A stretch of DNA of 64,000 nt. Origin: Shinella granuli. GTDB taxonomy: Bacteria > Pseudomonadota > Alphaproteobacteria > Rhizobiales > Rhizobiaceae. Shown here in pieces: positions 1 to 9,227 of this stretch (the stretch's first letter is position 1; the number at the start of each line of letters is the position of its first letter). Location: the NCBI RefSeq assembly GCF_004341885.1, contig NZ_SLVX01000022.1:1-64000 (forward strand), written 5' to 3'. The translations under genes were made by a program, and so were the position numbers. Below the pieces are notes generated by a model that was not told the origin of the DNA, did no database searches, and saw nothing but the letters and a program-made list of their open reading frames with translations.

Positions 1-99
1 GACCAGGGCCAGATCGTCGAGCAGAACTCGCCGGCCGAGTTCTTCGACAACCCGCAGCACGAGCGCACCAGGCTCTTCCTCAGCCAGATCCTGCATTGA
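1..99 (+). CDS. Amino-acid ABC transporter ATP-binding protein, C-terminal end only
   Basis: The window opens inside a frame that ends at a TGA at 97-99. The 32 visible residues read DQGQIVEQNSPAEFFDNP and finish ERTRLFLSQILH. This is the usual end of GlnQ/HisP-type ATPases of polar amino-acid importers: the strand after the H-loop, then 'P..FF.NP...RT..FL..IL'. The nucleotide-binding motifs lie outside the window, so substrate and completeness cannot be judged. The assignment rests on this tail alone, but the tail is characteristic. Confidence 0.8.
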   Translation, partial: DQGQIVEQNSPAEFFDNPQHERTRLFLSQILH

Positions 100-228
100 A
101 ACACGGTTTCGCCGGAGAGATGCTCCGGCGCTGCCTGCCGCCTGGATTCGATGCCATGGGTGCGATAGCTGCCGCTGGTCGTGCGCACCGGACCGACGCC
201 AGGGCGCTATCGGCGGGATCCTTGAATC

Positions 229-675
229 TCATGAGCAGAGCCCGTCGATCAACGCGATGCCGAGATCGGGGCGATGCCGGCGCCTCAACTCGGACGGCGT
301 CTCCCGCAGCACGACCTCCAGGGTCGGACGCACATGGCCTTCGAGGAAATGGCCGCCCTTGGTGCTTCCATCCGAAAAACCGAGCACGACATGCAGATGC
401 ACGCTCGGCTTGCCTTCGTCGTCCACCGCCACGTCGCCGATCATGCTGAGGACTTCCGATTGCACTTCGACGGGGATCTTCCTGTAGTTCTTCGTCTCGA
501 ACTCGAAGAAGGCGATCGTCGCCGCACGAAAGGCACCGATGGCCATGATCGAGGCTGCGGTTATACCCTCCCTCTCCACAAAATCGGTGATGCACTTGAA
601 GGCCTCGTCGCCCGTATCGAGAACGAGGATGAACGTGCGCTCGCCCGCGTCGCTTGCCAGAAGTTTGTGCTTCAT
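229..675 (-). CDS. PPC/DUF296 domain protein
   Basis: This 148-residue protein is nearly all one PPC (plant and prokaryote conserved, DUF296) domain. Visible marks are a beta-strand start 'RTFILVLDTGDEAF', a helix 'CITDFVEREGITAASI', the turn 'AIGAFRAATIAFFEFETK', and the core 'VHLHVVLGFSDGSTKGGHF' followed by 'LEGHVRPTLEVVL'. The His-rich core resembles the metal-site region of bacterial members, which form trimers of unknown function. The start has a good ribosome site (GGGAG about 7 nt upstream). It lies downstream of, and on the same strand as, the trehalose-phosphatase gene with a 56-bp gap, so co-transcription is possible. A cellular role cannot be assigned. Confidence 0.8.
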   Translation of the reverse strand: MKHKLLASDAGERTFILVLDTGDEAFKCITDFVEREGITAASIMAIGAFRAATIAFFEFETKNYRKIPVEVQSEVLSMIGDVAVDDEGKPSVHLHVVLGFSDGSTKGGHFLEGHVRPTLEVVLRETPSELRRRHRPDLGIALIDGLCS

Positions 676-731
676 CGTCTATCTCCCGTGATGAAGGGAA
701 AAGATCCGAAGCGCTCTTCTGTTCCGCCCGG

Positions 732-1544
732 TCAGGAGGCGGCCGTCGCTTTCCGGCCACCGGCCACGGCAATCGTCGCCAGCGCCGAGCGGATGGCCGA
801 CGGTGACGACGCCTTGGCAAGGGCGCAGGTGGCGGTCGTGAGCGAACCGACGCGGATCGACTGGCCGCCGCGGGCATTGGCGAGCGCGAACATGGTCTCA
901 TCCGTCAGGTCGTCGCCGATCGCGATCGGCAGGCGTCCTGCGAAGGCGGGCTGTTCCAGATAGCGTGCGACGGCCTCTCCTTTGTCGGCGCGGGAGGGGC
1001 GGATCTCGAAGACCATCTTGCCGGGCTGCAGCACCCAGGCGGGGCCAGCCTCCTCGGCAAAGTCGCGCATGATCTTTTCAAGCGTCGTGTCATAAGCGGG
1101 CGCCAGCCGGTAATGCGCGGCGACGGCAGCGCCCTTGTCCTCGATCAGCACGCCGTCCATCCAGGCCGTCTGCTCCACGAGGCGCTGTTTCAGTGCGGCA
1201 AAGGCCGGCGTCGCCGAGACAACCGAGGTCGCACCGTCCGCGCCCCTGAATTCCGCGCCGTGCAGGCCGGCGATGGGAAAGCGGAAGGGGGCGAACAGTC
1301 CATCGGCGAAAGGAAGACTTCGTCCGGTGACCAGCGCCAGCGCGCCGCCGAGGCGGGCGGAAACCGCATCAAGGTTCCCCGGAAGCGACAGGGGGACCTG
1401 GATGGCATCCGGCGTCGCCGCGAGATCGAGCAGCGTTCCGTCGATATCGAGGAAAAGCGCCCAGCGCTCCGGTTCGTCGGCAAGGCGGCGGACGAGATGA
1501 CGGGTTGCGGCATCCGACGGCTGCAATTTCTCCAGTTCGTTCAT
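732..1544 (-). CDS. otsB: Trehalose-6-phosphate phosphatase
   Basis: OtsB removes phosphate from trehalose 6-phosphate to give trehalose, an osmoprotectant, in the cytoplasm. The protein shows the HAD phosphatase motif I 'LFLDIDGTLLDLA' near residue 32, motif II in 'LALVTGRSL', the substrate-cap segment 'GLHGAEFRG', and motif IV 'IAIGDDLTDETMF'. The frame is open further upstream, to about 1712, but that extension is low-complexity and overlaps the start of the divergent ROK gene. Starting at MNELEK gives 270 residues, normal for the family. No trehalose-phosphate synthase (otsA) is in the window, so the substrate must be made by a gene elsewhere. Confidence 0.88.
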   Translation of the reverse strand: MNELEKLQPSDAATRHLVRRLADEPERWALFLDIDGTLLDLAATPDAIQVPLSLPGNLDAVSARLGGALALVTGRSLPFADGLFAPFRFPIAGLHGAEFRGADGATSVVSATPAFAALKQRLVEQTAWMDGVLIEDKGAAVAAHYRLAPAYDTTLEKIMRDFAEEAGPAWVLQPGKMVFEIRPSRADKGEAVARYLEQPAFAGRLPIAIGDDLTDETMFALANARGGQSIRVGSLTTATCALAKASSPSAIRSALATIAVAGGRKATAAS

Positions 1545-1656
1545 CGGCAAGCAAGTAGATCGCGATCGCCGGGCGGCAAGGGCTGACGTCGAAGTCCCTG
1601 CCGGAACAAGTTTTTCCCCGGCGCATTGTGCCCTCGCACCGGGCAGAGGAGCCGAC

Positions 1657-2736
1657 ATGGGCAAGCAGAAGAAGAAGCCGCGACAGACCGAAGACAACAG
1701 CGCCCCCGTCATTCACGGCGCGGATGATCTGCCCGCCGTCGCGGTGACCAGCTACAATCTCGAACTGAGCGACAAGGACGGCTTCATCGGCGACCAGGCC
1801 AACAAGTCCGCCTTCCGCGACGCCATCGAGGCATGGCGGAAACGGGTTCGCGCGGGCGGCGCGGATCCGCTGGGCGACGTGCCGACGGACGATCTTTCCA
1901 AGAAGGAGATCGACGCGCTGCTCAAGGAAGGGGAAACGGAGGCCGCATCCCTGGTGCTTGCGGCGATCGACGACTTTGCAACCGGTCTTGCGGGCGTTCT
2001 TGCGCGCTATCTCAAGGAGGAGGCCTGGAAAGGCACGGAGCGGATCGTGGTCGGCGGCGGCTTCAAGGACAGCCGGGCCGGCCTGATGGCGATCGCCCGC
2101 GCCCAGATCCGGCTCAAGGCCGAGGGGCTGAAGGTGGAAATCATGCCGATCGCCCATCATCCGGACGAGGCCGGGCTGCTCGGCGCGGTGCACCTCATTC
2201 CCTCGTGGATGCTGAAGGGCCACGATGCGATCCTCGCCGTCGATATCGGCGGCACCAACATCCGCGCAGGCCTCGTCAAGCTCAACCTCGACGACAAGCC
2301 GGATTTTTCCAGGGCCAAGGTCTGGAAGTCGGAGCTATGGCGCCATGCCGAAGACGAACCCCGCCGCACGGCCACCATCGAATATCTCGTGCGGATGATC
2401 GAAGCCCTCGTCGCCAAGGCAAAGAAGGCCAAGCTCGCGCTGGCACCGGTCATCGGCATCGGCTGCCCGGGCATCATCGCCCCCGACGGCTCGATCGCAC
2501 GGGGTGGCCAGAACCTGCCGGGCGGCAATTGGGAAAGCACGCATTTCAATCTTCCCGAGGCCTTGCGCAAGGCAATTCCCGAGATCGCCGGTCAGCCGAC
2601 CTTCATCATCATGCACAACGATGCCGTCGTGCAGGGCCTGTCGGAAGTGCCGCGCATGGCGGATGTAACGCGCTGGGCCGCCGTGACGATCGGTACCGGC
2701 CTCGGCAATGCCAGCTTCGCCCGCAAGGAAACGTGA
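1657..2736 (+). CDS. ROK-type (actin-like ATPase fold) protein with permuted domain order
   Basis: This 359-residue protein has the marks of ROK sugar kinases, but in an unusual order. The N-terminal ROK motifs lie in the second half: the phosphate loop 'AVDIGGTNIRAGLV' near residue 193, 'GIGCPG' near 268, 'NLPGGNWE' near 287, the catalytic-site 'HNDAV' near 321, and 'TIGTGLGN' at the very end. The first half contains what is normally the C-terminal lobe: helices around residues 95-125, 'RIVVGGGFKDSRAGL' near 129, and 'HHPDEAGLLGAVHL' near 168. The zinc motif (CxCGxxGCxE) of most ROK proteins is absent. The Asp expected from 'NDA' is present, so kinase activity is plausible. The substrate is unknown. 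It is divergent from otsB with a 112-bp gap. Confidence 0.75.
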   Translation: MGKQKKKPRQTEDNSAPVIHGADDLPAVAVTSYNLELSDKDGFIGDQANKSAFRDAIEAWRKRVRAGGADPLGDVPTDDLSKKEIDALLKEGETEAASLVLAAIDDFATGLAGVLARYLKEEAWKGTERIVVGGGFKDSRAGLMAIARAQIRLKAEGLKVEIMPIAHHPDEAGLLGAVHLIPSWMLKGHDAILAVDIGGTNIRAGLVKLNLDDKPDFSRAKVWKSELWRHAEDEPRRTATIEYLVRMIEALVAKAKKAKLALAPVIGIGCPGIIAPDGSIARGGQNLPGGNWESTHFNLPEALRKAIPEIAGQPTFIIMHNDAVVQGLSEVPRMADVTRWAAVTIGTGLGNASFARKET

Positions 2737-3011
2737 CCGGCCGAAGCTGGATCGCAAAGCCGGCAACCCGGTCCACCGGTAATCCCGGCTGAAGCGCTAC
2801 GTGCACAAACAATGATGTCGACGGCACGATCCGTCATCTTCGCTCCCGATGAGTGAAGGACCAGGCGCGCCTTGCAGATGGCTCACAATGCCGCAAGAAG
2901 CGCCCTGCCTCTCCCGTGCAGGAACACGCTCTGCGAAAAACAACGCCATATGAAGCGAAGAGTCTGTCCACCTCATCCGTTGAACAGACAGTCGCAGCAA
3001 ATTCGGCCTTG

Positions 3012-3032
3012 AAAGCACTAATGAAGTGCTTT
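3012..3032. promoter_or_regulatory. Perfect 7-bp inverted repeat just upstream of the TnpB-like frame
   Basis: Arms AAAGCAC (3012-3018) and GTGCTTT (3026-3032) are perfect complements around a 7-nt centre. The right arm ends 12 nt before the ATG at 3045 and is followed by the AT-rich run ATATATTTCATC. It could be a repressor operator or an RNA hairpin limiting initiation at 3045. No strong Shine-Dalgarno precedes 3045. Confidence 0.45.
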
Positions 3033-3044
3033 ATATATTTCATC

Positions 3045-3509
3045 ATGGCAACGAAGTTCACATCCAGTCTCAGGCTCATCCTTCAACCCACGCCGGACAT
3101 GCGCCGTGCGCTGTCCGAGACGCTGGCGGCCTACCAGCAGGCCATGGCGATCCTGGACCGGACAAAGGGCGCCAATGTCGTGGCGCTGCACCAGGCGGCC
3201 TATGAGGAGATCCGCGCGACGACGGGGCTTCCCGCCCGCCTTGTCACGCTCGCGCTGCGCGACCACGGCCGCCGCACGCCGGGAGAGGTCGTCGCGGATA
3301 TTCCGCTCGACTCCAAGCTCTTCGCGGTCAAGGGCCCGGACAGCGTGAGCATCGCGACGCTCGACGGCCGCATCGTGCTGCCCTACGCGGCAAGCGGCTA
3401 TCGCGAGGGCTGGGCGGATTTTGCCGAAGCGCGGCTCGTCTTTGCCGGGTCGTCCATCTGTCTCTATGCCGGCATCCAGGCCGGCATCCATTCGAAGAAG
3501 GAGGCTTCC
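3045..3509 (+). CDS. TnpB-like N-terminal domain, open in frame into PspA
   Basis: From ATG 3045, 155 codons run without a stop directly into the PspA start at 3510. The translation resembles the N-terminal part of TnpB/OrfB proteins of IS605- and IS1341-type elements. Matches are 'SLRLILQPTPDMRRALSETL', 'AAYQQAM', 'VALHQAAYEEIRATTGLPAR', 'IPLDSKLFAVKG', 'VSIATLDGRIVLPY' and 'AEARLVF'. It stops where the RuvC nuclease region would begin, so it cannot cleave DNA. The GC-rich third positions match the neighbours and the frame is intact, which argues for retention rather than decay. It may be made as a 369-residue TnpB-N/PspA fusion, or as a separate product with PspA re-initiating. The frame is also open upstream to about 2853, without family resemblance. 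Confidence 0.6.
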
Positions 3510-4154
3510 ATGTCCAACGAAGGTATCCTCGCCCGCCTCGGGCGCGTCATCGCCGGCGTCGTCAACACGGCGGTCGATGCCGCCGAGGCGTCGAACCCGG
3601 TCGCCGTGGCGCAGCAGGCCGTCCGCGAGATCGGCGCGATCGCCGAGGAAGCCCGCGCGGCGCTCGGCGTCGCCATGGCCGCCGGCCACCGGCTGAAGGC
3701 CAAGGCCGACGACCTCGACGCGGAGATCCGCGACCTCGACGAGAAGATCAAGGTCGGGCTGGAAAACGGCCGCGAAGACCTCGCCCGCGCCGCCACCGGC
3801 GTCCAGATCGACCTTGAGGCCCAGCGCGACGCGTTGTCCAAGGCCATCCTGGAGAATGCCGGCGAGATCGCCGATGCCGAGGCGACGCTGCGCAGCATCG
3901 CCTCGGCCCGCGCCGACGCGATGAAGCGGCTGGAGGATGCACGGCGCGCCGAGCGCGCTGCCCCGACGGCCGCCACCCCGTCCCAGCGCAACGACCGACG
4001 CCTTGCCGATGCGCTCGAAGCCGTCGAGCGTGTCACCGGCGTTCCTTCCAAGCCGGCCATGGAAGGAACGGCGGAGGTCGAGGAACTGGGCCGCCTGCAG
4101 CGCCAGAAGGCGATCGAGGCACGCCTTGCCGCCTTTAGGCAGGGTGAGCGCTGA
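3510..4154 (+). CDS. PspA/IM30-family phage-shock/membrane-stress protein
   Basis: This 214-residue protein is mostly long alpha-helix and coiled coil, as in PspA/Vipp1, which coat and stabilise the inner membrane under stress. The N-terminal amphipathic segment 'ILARLGRVIAGVVNTAVD' is followed by 'NPVAVAQQAVREI', the equivalent of the conserved 'DP..ml.q.i.em' segment. An Ala/Glu/Arg-rich coiled coil then runs to about residue 150. The start at 3510 is supported by a strong ribosome site (AAGGAGG, 5-nt spacing). The same frame stays open upstream into the TnpB-like segment. The stop overlaps the next start (ATGA), indicating translational coupling with the YqiJ-like gene. The PspA-YqiJ-YqiK order is a known bacterial flotillin arrangement. 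Confidence 0.85.
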   Translation: MSNEGILARLGRVIAGVVNTAVDAAEASNPVAVAQQAVREIGAIAEEARAALGVAMAAGHRLKAKADDLDAEIRDLDEKIKVGLENGREDLARAATGVQIDLEAQRDALSKAILENAGEIADAEATLRSIASARADAMKRLEDARRAERAAPTAATPSQRNDRRLADALEAVERVTGVPSKPAMEGTAEVEELGRLQRQKAIEARLAAFRQGER

Positions 4155-4810
4155 TGGAATCCATCGTCCACCCGGGGACCGCTCCCTTCTGGATCGCGCT
4201 CCTGACGGTGGCGGGCCTCGGCATCGTCGAACTGGTCTCGGTGCTGCTCGGCGCGTCCGCCTCCGGGCTGATCGACGACGGCCTCGACTTCAACGGGCCG
4301 GGTGATGCGGAATCCGGCCTTCTCGGCGGGTGGATGTCCTGGCTCAATGCCGGCGGCGTGCCGATCCTGGTGCTTGCCGTCATCCTGCTCTCCGCCTTCT
4401 CGGCAGCCGGCTTTGCGCTGCAGGCGGTCATCACGCAGTTCCGCGAGCCGCTGCCGCTCTACGCCGCCGTCACCGGCGCGCTCGCCGTCGCCATCCCCGT
4501 CACCCGCTGGTCATCGCGCGGGCTGGCGCGGATCATCCCGCGCGACGAGACGAGCGTGCAGGAACAGGCCGATTTCATCGGCCTCGTCGGAACGGTGACG
4601 CTCGGGCCGCTCGACCAGGGCCATCCCGGCACGGTGCGCATCAAGGACCGCTACGACAACATCCACACGCTGCGTGCCCGGGCCGTGCCGGGGCATGTGA
4701 TCGAGACGGGCGCGTCCGTGCTCATCGTCGACGGCAAGGACGGCCTCTTCCAGGCCATTCCCGCCCCGGCGGTGCTCGAAGACGGCCACTATCCCAACAA
4801 CGGAGGGTAA
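4154..4810 (+). CDS. YqiJ-type membrane protein with C-terminal OB fold
   Basis: This 218-residue protein has N-terminal hydrophobic segments (about residues 8-35, 65-95 and 100-115). A soluble C-terminal NfeD/OB-type beta domain follows: 'ADFIGLVGTVTLGPLDQGHP' near 138, then 'GTVRIKDRYDNIHTLRARAV' and 'VLIVDGKDGLFQAIP'. Proteins of this kind (YqiJ in E. coli) partner with flotillins in membrane microdomains. The start overlaps the PspA stop by 4 bp, and the flotillin gene follows 6 bp after the stop, so the three genes form one operon. No enzymatic activity is expected. Confidence 0.83.
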   Translation: MESIVHPGTAPFWIALLTVAGLGIVELVSVLLGASASGLIDDGLDFNGPGDAESGLLGGWMSWLNAGGVPILVLAVILLSAFSAAGFALQAVITQFREPLPLYAAVTGALAVAIPVTRWSSRGLARIIPRDETSVQEQADFIGLVGTVTLGPLDQGHPGTVRIKDRYDNIHTLRARAVPGHVIETGASVLIVDGKDGLFQAIPAPAVLEDGHYPNNGG

Positions 4811-4816
4811 ACGATC

Positions 4817-6526
4817 ATGGACTTCCTCTCGGTAGGAATCATCGCCGGGGTCATCGTGACGGCGATCGTCGTCATCGGCATCATCATGACCTCGCTCTAC
4901 ACCCGCGCCACACGCGACAAGGCCTATGTGCGCACCGGTCTCGGCGGCAAGAAGGTCGTGCTCGACGGCGGATCGGTCATCCTGCCGATCTTCCACTCCT
5001 ATTCCTGGGTGTCGCTCAGCACGCTGCGGCTAGAGGTCAAGCGCGCCGAAAACGAATCGCTGATCACCAAGGACCGCATGCGCGCCGACATCACCGCGGA
5101 GTTCTACGTCCGCGTGAAGCCGGATTCGGAGAACATCGCCCTCGCCGCCCAGACGCTCGGCGACCGCACGAACGACGCGGATGCGCTGAAGACGCTCGTC
5201 GAGGCGAAGTTCGTCGACGGCCTGCGCTCGGTGGCCGCCACCATGTCGCTGCGCGACCTGCAGGAGCAGCGCGCCGAATTCGTCAAATCCGTGCAGGCCG
5301 CCGTCGCGCATGACCTGCAATCGAACGGCCTCGAACTGGAATCGGTATCGCTGACCCGCCTCGACCAGACGGACATCAAGCATTTCAACCCGAACAACAG
5401 TTTTGACGCCGAGGGCCTCACCGCGCTCACCAAGATCACCGAGGAGCGCAAGCGCGAGCGCAACCAGATCGTCCGCGACAACGAGGTGGAGATCGCCACC
5501 AAGGACCGCGAAGCCGCGCTACGCCGCCTCACCATCGAGCGCGAGCAGCGCGACGCCGAGCTGACGCAGGAACGCGACATCGCCAACAAGACCGCAGAGA
5601 CGCGCGCGGAAGCGGCCAGGGCCGAACAGCTCGCCCGTCTCAGCGAGGAAACCGCCCGGCTCGACACCGAAAAGGGCATTGCCGAGCGCGACTCCCAGGC
5701 GCGCCAGGCCCGCGAGACTGCCCGGATCGATGCCGAACGCGGCATTGCCGAGCGCGAGGCGGAAGCCCGCCGCGTGACGGAGACCGCCCGCATCGACGCC
5801 GCCATCGCCGTCGCCGAGAAGAGCGAGCAGGAACAGGCCGCCCGCGCCAAGGCCGACGAGGCGAAGGCCGCCGCCATCACCGCCGAGGAACAGGTGACGA
5901 CGGCACGGGAAGTCGAGATCGCCGAGCGCGCCAAGCGCATCGCGGTGCTCGATGCGCGCAAGGCCGCCGAACAGGAGGCGACCGCCATCACCGTCAAGGC
6001 CGAGGCCGAGCGCCAGGCGGCCGAAAACCTCGCCGCCGCAACGAAGATCCAGGCGCAGGCTGATGCGGAAGCCGCCAAGATCAAGGCGACAGGCGTCATC
6101 GAGCTCGGCCAGGCCGAAGCCCAGGCCGAGCGTGCGCTCAACGAAGCCCGCAACGCCCTTTCGGCCAGCATCATCGAGTTCGAGCTCGCCCGCGCCCGCG
6201 TCGCCATCATCCCGCAGGCGCTGGAGCAGGCGATGAAGCCGATCGAGAAGATCTCCGACATCCGCATCTTCAGCGCCGGCGGCCTCGCCGGTGCGCTGGC
6301 GGGCAACGGCAGCAATGGCGGCGATGGGGCGGGACATGCCGTCGGCGACCTCAGCAGCCAGCTTCTCAGCTTCACGGCCCAGAAACCCATCCTCGACGAG
6401 ATCCTCGCACAGGCCGGCTTCAAGGGTGCCGACCCGACGCAGGCCCTGCTCGCCGCCTCCGTCGGCAACGCGGCGGCAAGGGTGCCCGCCGAAGGCGCCA
6501 AGGCAAGAACCGGGGACGCCGATTGA
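4817..6526 (+). CDS. Flotillin-like (SPFH) protein, YqiK family
   Basis: This 569-residue protein has one N-terminal membrane anchor, 'IIAGVIVTAIVVIGIIM'. The SPFH/band-7 domain follows (about residues 30-200), including 'VVLDGGSVILPIFHSYSWVS' and 'DMRADITAEFYVRV'-like strands. A very long Ala/Glu/Arg-rich coiled coil spans roughly residues 200-470, and a Gly-rich segment (near 495) leads to a short C-terminal domain. This is the flotillin/YqiK architecture: oligomeric inner-membrane scaffolds that organise membrane microdomains. It is the last gene of the PspA-YqiJ-YqiK operon, and a perfect inverted repeat lies 17 bp past its stop. It probably maintains the membrane together with PspA. Confidence 0.88.
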   Translation: MDFLSVGIIAGVIVTAIVVIGIIMTSLYTRATRDKAYVRTGLGGKKVVLDGGSVILPIFHSYSWVSLSTLRLEVKRAENESLITKDRMRADITAEFYVRVKPDSENIALAAQTLGDRTNDADALKTLVEAKFVDGLRSVAATMSLRDLQEQRAEFVKSVQAAVAHDLQSNGLELESVSLTRLDQTDIKHFNPNNSFDAEGLTALTKITEERKRERNQIVRDNEVEIATKDREAALRRLTIEREQRDAELTQERDIANKTAETRAEAARAEQLARLSEETARLDTEKGIAERDSQARQARETARIDAERGIAEREAEARRVTETARIDAAIAVAEKSEQEQAARAKADEAKAAAITAEEQVTTAREVEIAERAKRIAVLDARKAAEQEATAITVKAEAERQAAENLAAATKIQAQADAEAAKIKATGVIELGQAEAQAERALNEARNALSASIIEFELARARVAIIPQALEQAMKPIEKISDIRIFSAGGLAGALAGNGSNGGDGAGHAVGDLSSQLLSFTAQKPILDEILAQAGFKGADPTQALLAASVGNAAARVPAEGAKARTGDAD

Positions 6527-6542
6527 GCGCCTGAAGAAAACG

Positions 6543-6568
6543 AGGCCGCCGGATGAACCCGGCGGCCT
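6543..6568 (+). terminator. Inverted repeat after the flotillin gene, probable terminator or attenuator
   Basis: Perfect 10-bp GC-rich arms AGGCCGCCGG (6543-6552) and CCGGCGGCCT (6559-6568) flank a 6-nt loop. A short T-run follows (CCGCTTTT). It sits between the flotillin stop and the next start at 6597, so it should end or reduce transcription into the small periplasmic gene. Confidence 0.65.
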
Positions 6569-6596
6569 TGCCGCTTTTGACGGAAGGAGACAGATC

Positions 6597-7211
6597 ATGG
6601 CAGCCACCCGTTCGATCAGCCGCCCCGCCCGCCATCTCGGTACCGCGCTTGTCGCGCTCGTGCTTACCGCGACATCCGCCCTTGCCCAGGCCACCGATGT
6701 GCTCGGCATACCGGGCCCGATCGATTTCGAGGGTGACGCCTACAGGCTCGCCTGGAGCGCACAGCCCTCCGCAACCTACATCAAGCAGGAATATCTTCCG
6801 GACGGGCAGCGCGCCGAGCGATACGACCAGATGATCCTGGTCGAAACCGTCACAAGCGGCATCACCGTCATGGATGCTGTCCGCGCCCAGGTGGCGATGC
6901 TGAACCAGCGCAAGGCGACAGACCCGCTCGTCAACATGGACGTCATCCAGAACGAGGCGGCCGGCGAGGCGCTGCTCGACTTCATCGTCAGCAGCAAGGA
7001 TACCGACGGGCAGTATATCGTCGAATGGAACGCCTACCGCTATGCCCGCTACAGCGATGCCGGCGGCAAGCCCGGCGTCATGCTCTTCGGCATCAGCCGG
7101 CGCGCCTACGGCAACGCCGCCGCCAAGGACCTGCTGACGCAGCTAAAAGCGCTCAGGCCCGGCAGGGTCAAGGCGCTGACGCAAGTGCGCCTGCCCCGGC
7201 CTGCGCCGTGA
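6597..7211 (+). CDS. Putative periplasmic protein of unknown function
   Basis: I do not recognise the family. The 204-residue product starts with a clear Sec signal peptide: basic 'RSISRPARH', hydrophobic 'LGTALVALVLTATSALA', and AxA-type cleavage near residue 30. The mature part is a mixed alpha/beta domain with 'SATYIKQEYLPDGQRAERYD', 'MILVETVTSGITVMDAVRAQ' and a C-terminal 'VMLFGISRRAYG'. It has no cysteine pairs and no obvious catalytic motif. The start is fixed by a ribosome site (GGAAGGAG, about 8 nt upstream) and by the signal peptide. The gene follows the flotillin operon on the same strand after a hairpin, so it may be expressed with it at lower level. Confidence 0.7.
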   Translation: MAATRSISRPARHLGTALVALVLTATSALAQATDVLGIPGPIDFEGDAYRLAWSAQPSATYIKQEYLPDGQRAERYDQMILVETVTSGITVMDAVRAQVAMLNQRKATDPLVNMDVIQNEAAGEALLDFIVSSKDTDGQYIVEWNAYRYARYSDAGGKPGVMLFGISRRAYGNAAAKDLLTQLKALRPGRVKALTQVRLPRPAP

Positions 7212-7838
7212 ACCTGTGGGGCCGGTTTTCGCACGGCCCATGGGTCTGGTAAACGCAAGCAAGGGCGCGGCCGGTCTCACGTAGCGAGGACCGGTGACGG
7301 AACCTTCTTGCCAATTCCTCCGCCAATGCCTTACGCACGCCGCACCGCCCGCCCGCAATTCGGCTTCCGGAGGATCGGTGGGCACCAGCAAGAGTATGCA
7401 AGGGACATATCCGATCAGCGTGGGCATGCGGCTGAACATTACCAGCCGAACCGGAAAGAACAGGGATTGCATGCCACTGTTTTCTCGACAATACCGTCAG
7501 CATTGGAGACGTCCAAAGGGCGTACAACGCGGGATGGATAGCGATGCCGCTGGACAAATAGCCTGTCCATCGCGCACTCCGCGATAGCCAGAGCACCGGA
7601 TGGCTGAGCCGAGGCCAAACAGCTATCCTTACGACGGCAGATGCACTCTGCCCGCACAACAGAGCCCCGCCGGCGGCCGTCAATGTGCGGATAGGCATGG
7701 AGGGAGTGCCTCCATACGTTAAAATAAACGCCAGAAGTGCAGTTTCAGTCCATACCGAAGTCAGAACCGCACAGATTGTGCAGGCCGGAGGATGCCGGAT
7801 AAGATTGCCTTATCGGTCGTTTTGTTCATTATAGGGAA
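7212..7838. other. Long stretch with no supportable gene
   Basis: About 630 bp lie between the periplasmic protein and the recombinase. Short frames exist on both strands, the largest on the minus strand at 7168-7698, but they show no protein family, no ribosome site and no codon bias like that of the neighbours. The base composition is less GC-skewed than the flanks. The last 100 bp, with an AT-rich run near 7720-7740 and TTATAGGG near 7830, probably hold the recombinase promoter. The stretch may be decayed DNA. Confidence 0.5.
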
Positions 7839-8951
7839 ATGGACCGATTCGACGACGAAAACGCCGACAATTACCCCCCGCATTCCTCCGCGAAGCCGCA
7901 GGACGCAGCGATGGCCGAAGGCAAGTCCGCCACCGCCGTTGCGGCATCCGTGCCTCCCCGCCTGCCGACCCACCTGCAGGATCTCACGGATCGCGCCCGC
8001 GGGTATGTCGAGGCGGCGAGCTCCGTCAACACGCGAAAAGCCTACGCCTCCGACTGGAAGCATTTTTCCGCCTGGTGCCGGCGCCAGAACCTGGCTGCCC
8101 TTCCCCCCGATCCTGAGGTCGTCGGCCTCTATATCACCGCCTGCGCCTCCGGCACGGCCGAGCGTGGCGGCAAGCCCAACACCGTCTCCACGATCGAGCG
8201 CCGCCTTGCGGCAATCGGTTGGAACTGCGCGCAGCGCGGCACGAAGCTCGACCGCAAGGATCGCGCCATCGCCACCGTCATGGCCGGCATCCGCAACCGG
8301 CATGCCGCCCCGCCGCGCCAGAAGGAGGCCCTGCTTCCCGAAGACCTCATCGCCATGCTGGAAACGCTCGACCGCGGCACGCTGCGTGGCCTGCGCGACC
8401 GGGCCATGCTGCTCGTCGGCTTTGCCGGAGGCCTGCGCCGCTCGGAGATCACCGGCCTCGATCTGGGGCGCGACCAGAGCGAGGACGGGCGCGGCTGGAT
8501 CGAGATCTTCGACAAGGGCGTTCTGGTGACGCTGCGCGGCAAGACCGGCTGGCGCGAGGTGGAGATCGGCCGCGGTTCGTCCGACGCCACCTGCCCCGTC
8601 ACCGCGCTCGAAACCTGGATCCGCTTCGCGAAGATCGCCCGGGGTCCGCTGTTCCGCCGTGTCACCGGCCAGGGCAAGGATGTCGGTCCGGACCGGCTCA
8701 ACGACCAGGAGGTGGCGCGCCTCGTCAAGAAGGCGGCGCTGGCCGCCGGGGTGCGCGGCGACCTGTCGGAAGCCGAGCGGGCACAGAAATTCGCCGGCCA
8801 TTCGCTTCGCGCCGGCCTCGCCTCCTCGGCCGAAGTCGACGAGCGCCATGTGCAGAAGCAACTCGGCCACGCCTCGGCCGAAATGACCCGCCGCTACCAG
8901 CGCCGCCGCGATCGCTTCCGCGTCAATCTTACAAAGGCCGCGGGTCTCTAA
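7839..8951 (+). CDS. Tyrosine recombinase/integrase
   Basis: This 370-residue site-specific recombinase of the XerC/integrase superfamily has an N-terminal core-binding (SAM-like) domain around residues 55-150: 'ASSVNTRKAYASDWKHFSAW'. The C-terminal catalytic domain carries the first Arg in 'GGLRRSEITGL' (about 204), His-x-x-Arg in 'GHSLRAGLAS' (about 322), the second His in 'LGHASAEM' (about 346), and the nucleophilic Tyr in 'TRRYQRRRD' (about 354). All key residues are present, so it should be active. It lies next to the repABC cassette, where such enzymes often resolve multimers or mediate cointegration. No flanking att repeat was recognised. It may equally be a leftover mobile-element integrase. 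Confidence 0.88.
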   Translation: MDRFDDENADNYPPHSSAKPQDAAMAEGKSATAVAASVPPRLPTHLQDLTDRARGYVEAASSVNTRKAYASDWKHFSAWCRRQNLAALPPDPEVVGLYITACASGTAERGGKPNTVSTIERRLAAIGWNCAQRGTKLDRKDRAIATVMAGIRNRHAAPPRQKEALLPEDLIAMLETLDRGTLRGLRDRAMLLVGFAGGLRRSEITGLDLGRDQSEDGRGWIEIFDKGVLVTLRGKTGWREVEIGRGSSDATCPVTALETWIRFAKIARGPLFRRVTGQGKDVGPDRLNDQEVARLVKKAALAAGVRGDLSEAERAQKFAGHSLRAGLASSAEVDERHVQKQLGHASAEMTRRYQRRRDRFRVNLTKAAGL

Positions 8952-9227
8952 GACACGCTTGACGCCTTGCGCCTTCGCCCTGTGATTTTCGCACGTCACA
9001 CCAAGCGACATGCTTCAAGATCGCCTGCACAGGTTCGCAGCGGTGCTTCGAATGTTGAGGTCATCTCTCCGAGTAAAAATCTTGCCATTCCATCCGCCTG
9101 CACGATGAAAGAGACGAATGCTTTTTCTCACCGGCATCTCCAGGATTGCGCGCAAGGCTCGGGCGAGGTTTGTCAGGATAGATTCTCGGGAACTCGGCAC
9201 GGAACGCAGCGGCAACAGGACATCACA

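Follow-up and report, generated by a model that had tools for sequence, protein, structure and literature searches.

The front half of TnpB, stripped of its nuclease and fused to PspA, is probably a gene switch on the palindrome of its own operon in many alphaproteobacteria

The first 64,000 nucleotides of contig NZ_SLVX01000022.1 of Shinella granuli (the window) carry an open reading frame (ORF) in which a segment resembling the N-terminal part of TnpB runs into the membrane-stress protein PspA, followed by yqiJ and the flotillin gene yqiK (Table 1). A preliminary description of this DNA had reported the in-frame run of the TnpB-like segment into pspA, and the frame is open throughout. In the following, the TnpB-like segment is termed the module. 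The fusion of this nuclease-stripped front half of TnpB with PspA is probably an ordinary gene switch acting on the palindrome of its own operon, and it occurs in many alphaproteobacteria. Residues 156–369 are assigned to PspA_IM30 by Pfam (E 8.1e-9, above the cut-off) and score far under the NCBIfam cut-off for equivalog PspA. A model of the full fusion, with a predicted local distance difference test (pLDDT) score of 70, matches VIPP1/PspA in Foldseek, with TnpB at rank 13. The third-position G+C content of both parts is like that of the neighbouring genes (module 0.845, PspA 0.879).

Table 1. Features of the fused gene, its upstream region and the downstream genes (positions in the window)
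Feature	Position	Strand	Basis or remark
-35-like hexamer TTGAAA	3009..3014	+	sequence; invariant in 12-row alignment; 17 bp from TATATA
Operator-like palindrome AAAGCAC-N7-GTGCTTT	3012..3032	.	same-register 21-mer assigned in 50/50 rows
-10-like hexamer TATATA	3032..3037	+	by eye
Fused ORF, TnpB-like module and PspA	3045..4154	+	single open frame, 369 residues
TnpB recognition-lobe module (WED strand 1, REC helices, remaining WED; RuvC absent)	3045..3509	+	profiles, AlphaFold2, hhalign, Foldseek, selection
Codon for Arg65, covarying with operator position 5	3237..3239	+	column scan
Putative internal Shine-Dalgarno AAGGAGG for free PspA	3498..3504	+	conserved in fused rows
PspA/IM30 part (ESCRT-III type)	3510..4154	+	Pfam; Foldseek VIPP1/PspA
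yqiJ	4154..4810	+	Pfam YqiJ_N and YqiJ_OB
yqiK/flotillin	4817..6526	+	Pfam Band_7 and Flot

Residues 1–155 are homologous to the lobe of TnpB/Cas12 that comprises the wedge (WED) and recognition (REC) domains, and stop before the RuvC nuclease. Neither Pfam nor NCBIfam has a family that the segment matches above cut-off, its best match in PHROGs is only E 0.18, and a phage collection gave none at E up to 0.1. However, a profile of 12 module relatives reaches the full-length TnpB L052 (E 7.6e-7), in which RuvC and zinc-ribbon motifs are recognizable by eye, and a tblastn search of plasmids with the module of the window meets an annotated TnpB (H13) at E 6e-4; the plasmid matches H2–H7, H9 and H10 of that search were left out of the row-by-row reading. 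Comparison of 41 module rows with six TnpB sequences by hhalign gives a probability of 98.9% and E 3.9e-17 (single comparison) over residues 8–147, the alignment ending just short of RuvC.

The predicted structure agrees with this assignment. In the AlphaFold2 model (mean pLDDT 81) a strand (residues 7–13) is followed by helices (17–75) and further strands (85–144), forming a WED barrel with the REC helices inserted after its first strand. Foldseek ranks 1–21 and 23 among PDB entries are Cas12f, TnpB, other Cas12 proteins, TranC and Fanzor2, with an unrelated entry at rank 22; the best E is 2e-4, and just two matches have E ≤ 0.001. Within a viral structure library, the first three matches carry either no characterisation or no name, and transposases are frequent among the named matches that follow. 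A chance likeness to other folds was rejected, the unrelated matches being weak and mutually dissimilar. The profile, hhalign and Foldseek comparisons thus bear out the preliminary view of a TnpB N-terminal part that ends before RuvC.

For the survey of related loci, 50 rows from four alphaproteobacterial orders were compiled, representing 48 distinct loci (L019/L023 and L020/L024 are the same loci twice). RuvC catalytic acids and the TNB zinc ribbon are not present, PspA residues starting where RuvC would, and no RuvC follows the module in any of the 50 rows read. In the tree, all modules form one clade apart from the six TnpB sequences (support 100/100), and the module is a single copy in its genome. 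Capture as a regulator apparently happened once. As an observation of its own, Pfam relates the TnpB REC helices (residues 33–80) encoded at L053:2444–3571 to the Mor transcription activator family, though below threshold (E 0.019).

Fusion to PspA, in frame and free of stops, holds for 49 of the 50 rows (47 of 48 distinct loci). A script, read by eye, places yqiJ directly 3' in 43 of the 50 rows, and a separate reading adds L111, L039, L033, L038 and L015, which leaves L035 and L044. The searches yielded 11 loci on GTDB contigs, 24 loci in 397 genomes at order level (26 matches, two rejected on reading), 6 loci in 385 genomes at class level, and 9 loci in 398 genomes at phylum level, plus one TnpB and one rejected match. 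Further searches, overlapping the earlier ones, found the module in 4/17, 8/76, 1/10, 4/5 and 1/15 genomes, the first three covering additional orders of the same class. Among 61 near genomes it is present in 6 of 21 from the genus of the window and in 0 of 40 others, weak matches excluded. A one-off fusion was rejected because the GTDB-contig and order-level searches gave many loci. Seven candidates with E 5.8e-4 or weaker were likewise rejected as relatives, L007, L046 and L047 after reading and L008–L011 set aside unread. The module is under purifying selection, with a ratio of nonsynonymous to synonymous substitution rates (dN/dS) of 0.04–0.18 across 16 pairs, compared with 0.03–0.11 for PspA.

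These numbers bear on the possibility that the module is a decaying TnpB remnant standing in frame with pspA by chance. Such remnants do occur, as exemplified by the truncated TnpB on a Rhodothermus plasmid (L054); however, 48 distinct loci with 47 stop-free fusions and the low dN/dS values already contradict this explanation, which we regard as hardly credible. The preliminary description had held the frame to be kept rather than decaying, and the recurrence of the module in many genomes, its structural match to TnpB and the dN/dS range all agree. The Rhodothermus marinus element itself (about 2456–3030) is an unannotated TnpB N-terminal remnant that lacks RuvC, lies upstream of Phd/YefM-VapC and probably reflects decay. 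Separately, the same fused coding sequence as in the window, named 'PspA/IM30 family protein' by NCBI, is present on plasmid pShin-08 of Shinella sp. HZN7. Since the gene order at 1–9000 of the window resembles that of pShin-08 (PPC domain protein, otsB, ROK protein, pspA fusion, yqiJ, flotillin, integrase), the window is possibly plasmid-borne.

Upstream of the fusion, conservation is concentrated in one region. When 12 upstream regions are aligned, the invariant columns 5' of the start codon fall, with a single exception, in the adjoining block TTGAAAGCA..GTGCTTTATAT. Every row contains a 21-bp palindrome of the type AAAGNAC-N7-GTNCTTT near the start codon with at least 5/7 arm pairs (7/7 in 27 rows, 6/7 in 17, 5/7 in 6), and at least 6/7 pairs are formed in 44/50 rows versus 11% of shuffled segments. 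Where the pattern matched (31 of 41 rows), the palindrome ends 10–15 nt 5' of the start in 29; the exceptions are L051 (39 nt) and L050, a row beginning too late. The 26 distinct operators have 92.9% of arm cells paired, versus 31–58% for slid versions, and their covariation score is matched by 0/500 shuffles. Both-sided arm changes at positions 4 and 5 amount to 6 cells, which 0/500 shuffles equal. As judged by eye, the palindrome of L117 and that of L051 are placed differently relative to the promoter-like hexamers, at the start codon in L117 and further upstream in L051; with such differing placement it is more than just a promoter element. For sigma54 and RpoH promoters, inspection was by eye alone, and they were set aside. 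In the fusion on plasmid pSK03 of R. leguminosarum (L055), the annotated GTG start at 4965 falls within the operator (4951–4971), and the ATG at 4983 suits the family better.

A link between the protein and the palindrome emerges from a scan in which each of 155 alignment columns (141 variable) was compared with the base found at operator position 5, the operators being classed by whether at least one half-site has C at this position or none has (G/T). Residue 65 is the only clean column, with Arg in 37/37 rows with C and Gln in 13/13 rows with G/T; the next-best column scores 0.75, and residue 65 is the sole column of 155 in which the two operator classes share no letter. With duplicates removed, the classes comprise 35 and 13 operators. 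On a tree built without column 65, three residue switches and three operator switches occur, all at matching places, and all independent pairs are concordant (two on well-supported branches, three over all branches). Equally clean simulated columns, in which both classes are uniform and different, number 0 of 300,000, and 0, 3 and 0 of 400,000; simulation along the tree predicts at most 0.0012 such columns per 158. The six TnpB relatives have Gln (four) or Asn (two) at this position. In a hand alignment, residue 65 tentatively corresponds to F77 of ISDra2 TnpB, beside K76 and Q80, and passages of the ISDra2 TnpB study describe these two residues as reading the transposon-associated motif (TAM) (PMC10097598).

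Operons in which module and PspA are parted allow a further explanation to be weighed, namely that the module extends PspA in a structural or RNA-binding capacity, with an unrelated regulator bound to the palindrome. Fusion to PspA in 49/50 rows would be expected on these terms. However, in genome G1133 (L111/L125) the module stands alone before yqiJ and the flotillin gene, and this PspA-free copy keeps a palindrome of the same kind of its own; no pspA was found there among same-strand ORFs of at least 130 aa across 8.5 kb. In addition, elsewhere an unrelated small gene takes the place of the module, together with other repeats. Among 249 genomes of the order, 18 bear yqiJ and 12 of these have the module. 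Three of the six module-less yqiJ loci (L065, L066 and L068) have pspA unfused and preceded by a distinct small ORF, upstream of which CATTTG-type repeats are seen by eye; in Pfam and NCBIfam these ORFs stay below every cut-off. In L067, a near relative, an upstream small ORF was not found, while the sequence of L069 is cut off and L082 has no pspA directly upstream. By eye, the small ORFs of L065, L066 and L068 have a ribbon-helix-helix-like start.

The genome-wide occurrence of the palindrome also argues against such an extension. A loose form of the pattern, applied to 26 genomes, recovers the promoter copy in 20. It also finds 29 other sites, and the inner AC and GT of AAAGNAC-N7-GTNCTTT occur in none of them; the pattern in reverse finds 63. 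A second full-form site is thus not seen in the 26 genomes, which does not resemble a regulon. Together with the covariation of residue 65 with the operator, this makes the extension explanation unlikely in our view.

Alternatively, the module might still depend on RNA, as a TldR-like regulator whose guide RNA is encoded elsewhere in the genome. The lobe derives from an RNA-guided protein, WED contacts the guide RNA in ISDra2 TnpB according to parts of that study (PMC10097598), and TldRs are RNA-guided repressors according to parts of their description (PMC13418256). However, the module lacks RuvC and with it a share of the RNA contact; within 1500–7500 no Rfam match comes near its gathering score, and no 12-mer of 2990–3044 is repeated within the 64 kb window. 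Moreover, the palindromic operator tracks a protein residue, which a guide would make needless. RNA dependence is therefore considered quite improbable.

A guide-free DNA-binding domain is the best reading, because the duplex cleft is retained, the palindrome is conserved and residue 65 covaries with it. Parts of the ISDra2 TnpB study place the TAM duplex in the WED/REC cleft and assign binding of the guide RNA scaffold to WED and RuvC (PMC10097598). Once RuvC is lost, cleavage and a portion of the RNA-binding surface are gone, while the duplex-reading cleft is kept. We consider it likely that the TAM-reading lobe of TnpB has become a guide-free transcription factor which, tied to PspA, would repress pspA-yqiJ-yqiK via the palindrome. 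With less assurance, we also lean towards the wider view that it is a free-standing guide-free DNA-binding domain with an Arg65 (GTGC half-sites)/Gln65 (others) switch, that its fusion to PspA constitutes an envelope-stress repressor, and that both represent a new class of transcription factor. The preliminary suggestion of RNA or DNA binding with control of the operon is thus supported and narrowed towards sequence-specific DNA binding by the conserved palindrome, the residue-base covariation, the stand-alone copy and the replacement small gene elsewhere.

According to this proposal, TnpB would have lost its entire nuclease lobe and the remaining REC lobe would have been recruited as regulator of a membrane-stress operon. 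The module would bind the promoter-overlapping palindrome, either as a dimer or via the PspA oligomer, and in the bound state would repress, rather than activate, pspA-yqiJ-yqiK. Specificity would reside in the protein instead of a guide RNA, residue 65 reading position 5 of each half-site. The first helix of known PspA proteins is membrane-binding, and the module is fused directly ahead of this helix. The fusion could thereby act as a one-protein sensor, in which a damaged membrane engages PspA and the DNA-binding part is pulled off the operator.

Several observations weigh against this interpretation. Symmetric binding is assumed, yet ISDra2 TnpB is reported as monomeric in the parts of its study drawn on here (PMC10097598). 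The family is patchy, with 6/21 genomes in the genus of the window, and a PDB sequence search with a 27-module profile yields no TnpB. Just 5/7 arm pairs are formed in L027, L029, L031, L032, L051 and L114, pairs of both-sided changes number two, which 64/500 shuffles equal, and the loose pattern misses the promoter copy in 6/26 genomes. The covariation is based on three switches, so that a sign test is unable to reach 0.05, and the operator class was set after the operators were seen. Its significance hinges on the strict criterion, because simulation under the weaker one (no shared letter) gives an expectation of 0.47 columns per 158, against a single column observed. Finally, two MAFFT alignments contradict the hand alignment of residue 65 to ISDra2 TnpB.

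The gene is probably translated from two starts. No Shine-Dalgarno sequence of at least 4 nt precedes the first ATG in any of 39 tested cases (the Met-starting rows within the first set of 41), and the promoter-like hexamers place the predicted +1 at or beside this ATG; for both reasons the fusion mRNA is probably leaderless. In contrast, such a sequence precedes the PspA ATG in 46/49 fused rows, versus 24/177 other internal Met codons. The conservation of this putative ribosome site makes two products likely, as had been thought possible from the window alone: the leaderless start would give the fused regulator of 369 residues, and the internal site probably also yields free PspA of 214 residues.

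Compared with TnpB and Cas12f, the module shares the fold and the order of parts of the REC lobe, which in ISDra2 holds the TAM duplex according to the portion of that study used here (PMC10097598), but it is devoid of the nuclease (NUC) lobe and is almost always joined to PspA. No transposon gene is seen beside it in the window, where tnpA and element ends were not searched for. Like TldRs, it is TnpB-derived, nuclease-inactive and domesticated beside host genes, with transcriptional control proposed here. However, TldRs are near full-length TnpB proteins with a mutated RuvC, a description the module does not fit. TldRs are RNA-guided with an inactivated RuvC in the parts of their description considered (PMC13418256), whereas RuvC is wholly absent from the module, no guide is seen, and specificity goes with a palindrome and a residue of the protein.

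PutA-type repressors offer another parallel, since in these a DNA-binding domain is fused to a membrane-going protein, as in module-PspA; their DNA-binding fold and sensor differ. The operon itself resembles the PspA-YqiJ-flotillin operons of a survey of the phage shock protein (PSP) system, parts of which describe pspA with band-7/flotillin genes and YqiJ and a role in membrane stress (PMC11237479). The PspA fusions named in those parts are NlpC/P60 and PspAA, the regulators include PspF, ClgR and ribbon-helix-helix proteins, and 'transposase' has no occurrence in the main text of the survey (PMC11237479). Among titles and abstract openings of the open-licence literature, neither a TnpB-PspA fusion nor a guide-free TnpB-derived regulator was found, and truncated TnpB appears there in gene editing.

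If the lobe reads DNA alone, recognition of the protospacer-adjacent motif or TAM would be separable from both guide and nuclease. If the proposal is true, the module would provide a compact DNA-binding fold for engineering and a natural code for base choice by REC helices. For the bacteria that carry it, it would represent a new wiring from membrane damage to transcription.
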